This document shows positions 8,347 to 29,261 of a DNA stretch of 37,686 nucleotides, in pieces. Numbering within the stretch: the stretch's first letter is position 1; each line of letters opens with the position of its first letter. The stretch is from an uncultured Erysipelotrichaceae bacterium (GTDB taxonomy: Bacteria > Bacillota_I > Bacilli_A > RF39 > UBA660). A program made the translations under genes and the position numbers. Where the stretch lies: the NCBI GenBank assembly GCA_902797265.1, contig CADBSF010000064.1, positions 1 to 37,686 of the forward strand, given 5' to 3'. The notes under the pieces were generated by a model that worked only from the letters and a program-made list of their open reading frames with translations, was not told the origin of the DNA and did not search any database.

Positions 8347-8381
8347 CGAAAGAAAAAGAAGCTTCTTTTATTCAGCTTCTT
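8347..8381 (-). terminator. Intrinsic terminator of rpmE
   Basis: Arms AAGAAGC (8356-8362) and GCTTCTT (8375-8381) pair over 7 bp across a 12-nt loop. The minus-strand downstream side is T-rich. The stem overlaps the end of rpmE. Confidence 0.65.
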
Positions 8382-8586
8382 CTTTTTTATCAAATCCATA
8401 TTTTTTATTGAATTTATCAACACGTCCTGCACGAGATGCTCTGTTTTGTTTTCCTGTATAAAAAGGATGACATTTTGAGCATACTTCAACATTAATTTCA
8501 CTTTTTGTTGATTTACAAGTAAATTTTTCTCCACATGCACATGTTACTGTACAATCTTTAATTTCTGGATGGATATCTTTTTTCAT
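8368..8586 (-). CDS. rpmE: 50S ribosomal protein L31 (zinc-binding type)
   Basis: Large-subunit protein that helps bridge the two ribosomal subunits. 72 residues beginning [19 protein letters not shown]. Zinc-binding cysteines are present as CxC and CxxC (CSKC), which marks the C+ form rather than the zinc-free YtiA form. The start is ATG 8586: AAGGAGAG precedes it at proper distance, whereas the upstream ATG at 8607 has no ribosome site and lies inside a leader hairpin. It has its own promoter and leader (8603-8673). Confidence 0.95.
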
Positions 8587-8603
8587 TCTAATCTCTCCTT
8601 CCG

Positions 8604-8625
8604 CCATGACAAATACTTGTCATAG
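8604..8625 (-). promoter_or_regulatory. Leader hairpin of rpmE, candidate L31 autoregulatory site
   Basis: Between the rpmE promoter and its ribosome site, TGACAA (8607-8612) and TTGTCA (8617-8622) form an exact palindrome with a 4-nt loop. The stem extends to 9 pairs (8604-8612 with 8617-8625) with one G-U pair. L31 leaders that bind the protein are known in Firmicutes and gamma-proteobacteria; whether this hairpin belongs to that RNA family was not testable here. Confidence 0.5.
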
Positions 8626-27634: not shown

Positions 27635-28621
27635 TTATTCGCCTTCTTCTTTTAATATTCTTTTTAAGTCTTGTTCTACTTTACTAATTGTTGTATCTTC
27701 AAATTTTGCTGCGCCATTATATTCATCTCCGCCTCCACCTAATTTTTCCACTACTTTTAACATATCATAGTTTCCTAAACTTCTAGCACTTAAACCTATT
27801 GTTGTTTTACCAATTCTTCCTATGACAAAAGAGGCTTCTATGTTATTAAAAAATAACAAGGTATCAGCAACTTTTGCTAGATCTTCTTTTCTATATTGGG
27901 TATAAGGAGAAGCTTTTGTGAAAGCAATTCTTTTATTAATTGTTTCAATCCCTGACATTAACTTTTGTCTTTCAGTATATTCTTCTATATCTTGTTTTAG
28001 TAAATATTGTACTTTTTTTGCACTAGCTCCTAATGTTACTAGATAATAGGAATTATAAAAAGTATCAGCTGATGTATTTAAGGTATAGTTGTTCGTATCT
28101 AAAACAATTCCCGATAATAGAATGGTTGCATAATATGGTTCTATTTCTACATCATAATGTTCTATTAGACTCGTTATCATTTCACAGGCACTTGATGATT
28201 TCGTATCGTTTATCATAATTGCATTTTTAATTGTTGTTTTTCCTGTTTCATGATGGTCTATAACTAATTTATTCGTTATTTGTTTTAATACTTTTTCATT
28301 TTGAACAAGTTCTTGTTTATTCGTATCTAATATAATTAATAGATTTTTATTTTCTTTTGGATGCTTTTTCTCTAGTAATTCATCACTTCTAATAATATTG
28401 ATACATCCCTCTAATTCTCTTAGTATTTTCTCAACTCCAGGTTCATTATATCTATCATCAATAATTAAATAACTATCTTTATGTCTTTTTTTAAGAAACA
28501 TATACATTCCAATTGAACTTCCTAAAGCATCTAGGTCTAATTCTTTATGGGCCATTATAAAAATAGTTTTTGCTCTTCTGATGGCTCTTTTAATTTTATT
28601 TCGTTCTTTAATGATAATCAT
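27635..28621 (-). CDS. Shortened GdpP-like DHH/DHHA1 phosphodiesterase
   Basis: 328 residues made only of the DHH and DHHA1 domains. Motifs are [11 protein letters not shown] (24-34), LILDTN (about 97-102), DHH (122-124) and a DHHA1 glycine loop GGGGDE (295-300). In the usual loop a His follows the glycines; here it is Asp. Bacillus GdpP (YybT), which degrades c-di-AMP, sits at this same locus before rplI but has two membrane helices plus PAS and degenerate GGDEF domains in front, about 650 residues. Those are absent, and the space upstream to rpsR holds no coding frame. Likely role: c-di-AMP or pApA/nanoRNA cleavage, not resolved. Its own promoter is at 28648-28676. Confidence 0.85.
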
Positions 28622-28647
28622 AATTCCTCCTATAAAATACCAATTTT

Positions 28648-28676
28648 ATTATATAATAAATCTTTCTTTTTGTCTA
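28648..28676 (-). promoter_or_regulatory. Promoter of the gdpP-like gene and rplI-dnaB operon
   Basis: Minus strand TAGACA (28676-28671), 17-bp spacer, perfect TATAAT (28653-28648). The ribosome site AGGAGG precedes ATG 28621. Confidence 0.8.
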
Positions 28677-28689
28677 ATTTTTTATAAAC

Positions 28690-28724
28690 AAAAAAATACT
28701 TAGACAATGAATCATTTCTAAGTA
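28690..28724 (-). terminator. Intrinsic terminator downstream of the structured RNA
   Basis: TACTTAGA (28697-28704) pairs with TCTAAGTA (28717-28724) over 8 bp with a 12-nt loop; seven T residues follow on the minus strand. It lies just upstream of the gdpP promoter. Confidence 0.75.
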
Positions 28725-28783
28725 ATCTGGTATTATTAATTTATTAATTTGGTAGAATAGTTTAATAAAAATAATAATCTATG

Positions 28784-28945
28784 AATGTCTAAAGTCGGAG
28801 TGGAAAAACCCGCTATTTGCAGGTGGGTGTCCATACTCAACCTTTAGGATTCCTACTCTATGGAAGGCTTTCAACACCGGTTGACTCGTTCCTGACTCCC
28901 GTATTTTTTCTTAGTCGGTTTTAAAAAACTCTTTTCTTTAAGACA
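28784..28945 (-). ncRNA. Unidentified structured RNA (possibly 6S RNA)
   Basis: A stretch that is clearly richer in G+C than its AT-rich flanks, lying in the 418-bp gap between rpsR and the gdpP-like gene and without a reading frame. The ends pair: TGTCTAAAG (28786-28794) with CTTTAAGACA (28936-28945), one bulged A. The 5' end falls at the start predicted from the -10 at 28951-28956. A second stem joins GGAGT plus GGAA (28797-28805) to TTCC and ACTCC (28889-28899). Inside are CCCGC/GTGGG, TCCATA/TATGGA with a nested TAGG/CCTA, and TCAAC/GTTGA. The rod with a side hairpin at an inner bubble would suit 6S RNA, but I recognise no signature sequence. A plus-strand transcript is less likely, though a T run follows the inner stem there. 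Confidence 0.55.
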
Positions 28946-28950
28946 ATTAG

Positions 28951-28959
28951 ATTGTATCA
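28951..28959 (-). promoter_or_regulatory. Promoter of the structured RNA (extended -10)
   Basis: Minus strand TGATACAAT: TG, one base, TACAAT (28956-28951). The -35 is weak (AACACA). Predicted start coincides with the first base of the RNA's closing stem. Confidence 0.5.
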
Positions 28960-29012
28960 TATATTTTTTATTGTGTGTTGTTTTTTTATTTTTTTCTTTT
29001 TGCTTAACGTAA

Positions 29013-29040
29013 AGAAAAAAGAGTGTTTTTCTTTCACTCT
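29013..29040 (-). terminator. Terminator of the rpsF-ssb-rpsR operon
   Basis: AGAGTG (29020-29025) pairs with CACTCT (29035-29040), loop 9 nt, followed on the minus strand by T residues. It overlaps the rpsR stop codon. Confidence 0.8.
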
Positions 29041-29261
29041 TATCTTGAATAAGGCATTAATGCTATTGCACGAGCCCTCTTAACTTGTTTTGCAATATAT
29101 CTTTGATGTAAGGCACAGTTTCCTGTAACACGTCTTGGTACTATTTTTCCTTTTTCGTTTGTATATCTTTTTAGTGTTTCAACGTCTTTATAATCAACTG
29201 TTTTTCCAGTACACATCATACATACTTTTTTCTTACGACGATTGTTATTAAATTCTGCCAT
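29040..29261 (-). CDS. rpsR: 30S ribosomal protein S18
   Basis: 73 residues, basic. It contains the family core [50 protein letters not shown] in recognisable form, and an N-terminal CMMCTG segment. It binds S6 and 16S rRNA on the platform of the small subunit. Last gene of the rpsF-ssb-rpsR operon; ribosome site AAAGGAGG. Confidence 0.97.

Follow-up and report, generated by a model that had tools for sequence, protein, structure and literature searches.

A 6S RNA gene beside rpsR and its old paralog in an uncultivated lineage of Bacilli

The gap between rpsR and a DHH-DHHA1 gene in the window (the whole 37,686 nt stretch of DNA that was analysed) almost certainly holds a 6S RNA gene, which lies on the minus strand with its own promoter and terminator and is the second of two old paralogs. 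6S RNAs are well known; by mimicking a promoter, these small RNAs hold the housekeeping RNA polymerase in check. The first-pass annotation had described an unidentified structured RNA and named 6S RNA as the best guess from shape and size; the guess was right and the gene is no longer unidentified, because it matches the Rfam 6S family (RF00013) above the gathering score. The gene thus adds a further case to an established class of RNA and does not define a class of its own; the novelty lies in the second locus and in how long ago it diverged. The features of the locus, all on the minus strand, are as follows.

27635 to 28621, minus strand: DHH-DHHA1 protein, 328 aa (PF01368, PF02272; NF011110 positions 363-681 of 838)
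28648 to 28676, minus strand: promoter of the DHH-rplI-dnaB genes, TAGACA-17-TATAAT (promoter scan, relatives)
28690 to 28725, minus strand: intrinsic terminator of the 6S unit, an ACTTAGA..TCTAAGT stem and then ATTTTTTTG (-9.5 kcal/mol for 28684-28735)
28786 to 28945, minus strand: 6S RNA core, rpsR-locus paralog (RF00013 match, fold, alignment of 11 copies)
28914 to 28927, minus strand: predicted pRNA template, the P2 5' strand plus CCGAC of the 5' central bubble (homology to Bacillus subtilis 6S-1)
28951 to 28959, minus strand: extended -10, TGATACAAT (reading of the strand)
29004 to 29013, minus strand: palindrome TTTACGTTAA, pattern TTnACGTnAA (sequence comparison)
29019 to 29041, minus strand: terminator hairpin past rpsR, upstream of the 6S unit (sequence, folding)
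29040 to 29261, minus strand: rpsR, ribosomal protein S18 (TIGR00165, PF01084)

The covariance model identifies the RNA. Searching Rfam 15 with the whole window (cmscan) gave two hits above their gathering scores, one of which was RF00013 on the minus strand at 28772-28956 (50.7 bits, E 2.1e-7, against a gathering score of 46.4 bits). The match runs end to end, covering model positions 1-187 of 187. The window copy exceeds the gathering score by only 4 bits; 10 of the 11 aligned rpsR-locus copies score above it, the best with 60.9 bits. Hits to mir-737, LPR10 and DUF805b were weak, fell far under their gathering scores and were discarded. A reading on the plus strand, where a longer stretch folds well (z -2.68), was also rejected, as the Rfam match, promoter and terminator are all on the minus strand. 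Elsewhere in the window, RF03156 (35.9 bits, 8595-8625, minus strand), the L31-Firmicutes ribosomal protein leader, was matched where an rpmE-like gene begins (ORF 8368-8607, minus strand); it is an ordinary autoregulatory leader.

The rpsR-DHH gap (28622-29039) is 418 nt long and its longest open frame has 55 codons. The segment 28786-28945 has a G+C content of 42%, whereas the remainder of the gap has 18% and the window as a whole 28%, so that the ORF-free stretch of raised G+C noted in the first-pass annotation is borne out. The same is true of the other features that it had picked out, namely an extended -10, a closing stem whose 5' base sits at the predicted start, nested helices (present in the minus-strand fold) and a terminator. 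The extended -10 is read at 28959-28951 with no recognisable -35 hexamer upstream, and the pattern TGnTAYAAT is present in all 12 rpsR-locus copies. The 5' base of the closing stem is 28945, about 6 nt past the -10. The terminator is an A+T-rich hairpin with a T-run, and it was overlooked by the terminator scanner because the scanner demands three G-C pairs. Judged by these sequence features, the 6S gene forms a putative transcription unit of its own between rpsR and the DHH/DHHA1 gene, with a housekeeping-type promoter and a terminator. With its 5' end the Rfam span reaches into the -10; the predicted 5' end of the RNA is near 28945 and the 3' strand of the closing stem ends at 28786. This makes the likely RNA about 160 nt long; an RNA extending to the terminator would have about 255 nt. 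The terminator lies about 60 nt beyond the closing stem, and for the 160 nt RNA a 3' trimming step must therefore be assumed.

The fold of the RNA is rod-shaped and consists of closing stem, central bubble and apical arm. In the closing stem, which carries a bulged U, UGUCU.UAAAG pairs with CUUUAGACA (28786-28794). RNAalifold analysis of 11 rpsR-locus sequences gave the rod with 35 pairs, 7 of them with compensatory changes, the kind of covariation that the first-pass annotation had suggested looking for in an alignment of this gap. None of 500 shuffles reached this count of 7, and slid controls gave 0-1. Across the same alignment (n=11) 96.4% of cells were paired, a figure that leans in favour of the structure, which came from that alignment; 7 pairs and 14 cells were altered on both sides. 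The covariation sits in the apical arm, and these compensatory changes are the firm part of the structural support; the closing stem is nearly invariant, so covariation is no test of its pairs. The sequences TCAACC and GGTTGA had been taken to pair in a different register, pointing to alternative folds. Instead, their pairing makes up the helix of the apical arm in the 6S fold, and four of the seven compensated pairs lie in this helix.

In the minimum-energy fold of the window RNA, closing stem and apical arm are accompanied by a 3' central-bubble hairpin, ACCUGC/GCGGGU. A hairpin in this position has been described for B. subtilis 6S-1 (PMC8876501). The consensus fold pairs AAAACC with GGUUUU (P2), and P2 competes with the hairpin for GGGU. 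Both elements agree with the plan of B. subtilis 6S-1, and we infer that their competition is a switch, as expected in pRNA-induced release. The folding energy of the minus-strand RNA is unexceptional (z = -1.35, single sequence). By itself, folding energy says little here, and the case rests on the Rfam match and the covariation.

There is a candidate pRNA template site in the central bubble. Aligning AAAACCGAC to the B. subtilis 6S-1 template gives a predicted pRNA 5'-GUCGGUUUUAAA for both paralogs; from the window template the predicted pRNA is 5'-GUCGGUUUUAAAAA. The pRNA of B. subtilis 6S-1 is 5'-GUUCGGUCAAAACUA (PMC12005410). The template AAACCGAC is common to the rpsR-locus and tcdA-locus copies, so the pRNAs of both paralogs would begin alike. 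It is found in 10 of the 11 rpsR-locus copies, the remaining one (L025) carrying AAACCACC. A survey of lactic acid bacteria gave GG at pRNA positions 4/5 or 5/6 as the key conserved feature (PMC8414754), and the predicted pRNA here has GG at 4/5. By homology with the family, the RNA, once expressed, would resemble an open promoter in its rod shape and would bind and block the housekeeping sigma-RNA polymerase. The polymerase would then copy the short product RNA, predicted as 5'-GUCGGUUUUAAA, from the central bubble, and this copying would open helix P2 and release the enzyme.

The genome of the window has a second full-length 6S match (C50:22119-22305, 47.4 bits), one gene upstream of the TcdA (YrvM) gene (NF011696). 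In B. subtilis, bsrA (the 6S-1 gene) is flanked by aspS and yrvM (PMC11077062). By locus, the genome's other copy (L002) qualifies as an orthologue of 6S-1 and the window copy does not. A 6S match near tcdA is also present in four relatives from other families (L003, L004, L008 and L016). Given this location and the bsrA flanks, the tcdA-locus copy is probably the ancestral one.

A 6S match was found in 44 of 59 relatives, and the tcdA copy is widespread in the genus. Twelve of the 38 readable rpsR-DHH gaps hold a 6S gene (gap length 348-492 nt). The other 26 do not; 21 of these are 85-137 nt long and five are 720-1215 nt. Presence was judged by the conserved GGTGTTGAA, and a 6S gene that has diverged strongly might thus go unnoticed in the five long gaps. 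Among the named MAG loci compared, those with a readable gap all lack a 6S gene at the rpsR locus. At least eight genomes have both copies (G000, G005, G009, G017, G021, G026, G030 and G035). A tree of 11 rpsR-locus and 29 other sequences (nearly all tcdA-locus), all from the genus, splits them into two groups with support of 100/100. Mean identity is 79% within the rpsR-locus group, 78% within the other group and 64% between them. Because the two clades are fully supported, the copies are old paralogs, comparable to 6S-1 and 6S-2 of B. subtilis, and the tree rules out repeated recent duplications. In the protein tree of neighbouring genes all carriers fall within one half of the genus. The AU test leaves a single carrier clade tenable (p 0.27), but seven changes are required on the unconstrained species tree, and the rpsR-locus 6S gene may therefore have been lost or transferred.

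Two further observations concern these loci. The tcdA-locus 6S gene of the window genome (L002:1499-1683) branches first within its group, and its apical arm (GAGTCAACCGGTGTTGAATGCC) resembles that of the rpsR-locus copies; this may reflect either gene conversion or an ancestral state. The five relatives with a long gap and no recognisable 6S gene are L096-L099 (G034, G028, G001 and G015) and L108 (G002), and in L049, where the gap is as long as that of G028, a small gene seems to begin in the gap. The rpsR-DHH gap may be a recurrent insertion point.

The first-pass annotation had also raised, as a more speculative idea, a new riboregulator linked to c-di-AMP turnover, because the next gene is gdpP-like; a leader of that gene was considered along with it. 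The gene that immediately follows the RNA does encode the DHH-DHHA1 domains of GdpP, but the protein is truncated: it matches only the C-terminal phosphoesterase part of GdpP and the PAS/GGDEF part is absent. Past the 6S terminator, the DHH gene is served by a promoter and an RBS of its own. This promoter looks much the same in relatives whether or not they carry the 6S gene, and nothing therefore points to a link with c-di-AMP. The gene is retained in all 39 genus genomes searched, whereas the RNA is missing from 26 of the 38 readable gaps. In the window search the RNA had no Rfam match to a c-di-AMP riboswitch or other cis-element family and, given also its full-length 6S match, a c-di-AMP riboregulator is very improbable. 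The DHH open frames of other genus genomes are similarly short, and several of these genomes encode a further DHH protein that is less closely related (31-40% identity).

It is just as hard to regard the gene as a decaying 6S pseudogene left by duplication, although the score barely above gathering, the bulged U in the closing stem and the lack of the copy in many relatives would fit. The 11 divergent copies keep a mean identity of 79% with compensatory changes, the promoter and its spacing are conserved, and the window copy retains the conserved central-bubble bases. The identity, the compensatory changes and the conserved promoter and spacing argue that the rpsR-locus gene is under selection. 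Least probable of all is a 6S gene acting mainly in cis to insulate rpsF-ssb-rpsR from DHH-rplI-dnaB; its constant place between two groups of growth-related genes, both on one strand, would suit such a role, but the 26 gaps without the RNA separate the groups equally well by terminator and promoter.

The 6S RNA gene at the rpsR locus differs from its paralog in its promoter. The rpsR-locus copies have the extended -10 (TGnTAYAAT) and no -35 hexamer, whereas most tcdA-locus copies have a TTG -35-like element and TATAAT. This suggests that the two copies may be expressed under different conditions, as are 6S-1 and 6S-2 of B. subtilis, and a split like the one in that species is our guess from the promoters. 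There is also a conserved palindrome, TTnACGTnAA, just past the rpsR terminator in 11 of the 12 rpsR-locus copies and in none of the 26 gaps without 6S. Its centre lies 58-59 nt before the end of the -10 (58 in the window copy), and it is possibly a regulator site. We rejected the palindrome as part of a regulon, because genome-wide its sites are rarer than those of the reversed control pattern (21 compared with 44) and most of the others inspected fall inside reading frames. It was also rejected as a catabolite-responsive element, as its half-sites, compared by eye, do not fit the cre consensus. A tentative reading, which we hold to be possible rather than probable, is that the second 6S RNA is specific to this lineage and is set by a regulator at TTnACGTnAA, about 65 nt before the start, under a dedicated signal control distinct from that of the tcdA-locus copy.

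Like other members of RF00013, the window RNA has a full-length match, a rod fold and covarying apical helices, but it is shorter (about 160 nt against 187 model positions). From the -10 to the end of the closing stem, rpsR-locus copies measure 162-171 nt and tcdA-locus copies 178-186 nt. As with 6S-1 (bsrA) and 6S-2 (bsrB) of B. subtilis, there are two paralogs at separate loci, the genome's other copy shares the tcdA/yrvM locus with bsrA, and the 3' central-bubble hairpin and the GG in the predicted pRNA are alike. In contrast with that pair, the window copy is at rpsR-DHH, which is neither of the described bsr loci (PMC7726162, PMC11077062), and both paralogs share the template AAACCGAC. 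Tandem 6S genes occur in the Bacillus cereus group, where those of B. thuringiensis are co-transcribed (PMC7726162), and also in the class-level relatives G042, G045 and G056. These genomes likewise have two copies, but theirs adjoin at one locus, whereas here they are dispersed, each with its own promoter. No report of a 6S gene next to rpsR came up in a literature search of a library that has few subscription journals and lacks the synteny tables of earlier 6S surveys.

Taken together, the RNA is identified, and an uncultivated lineage of Bacilli is seen to have a pair of 6S paralogs that are old, have diverged and differ in their promoters. Labour may thus have come to be divided between two 6S RNAs outside B. 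subtilis as well, in the manner of its 6S-1 and 6S-2, and the conserved palindrome offers a concrete way into the regulation of one paralog.
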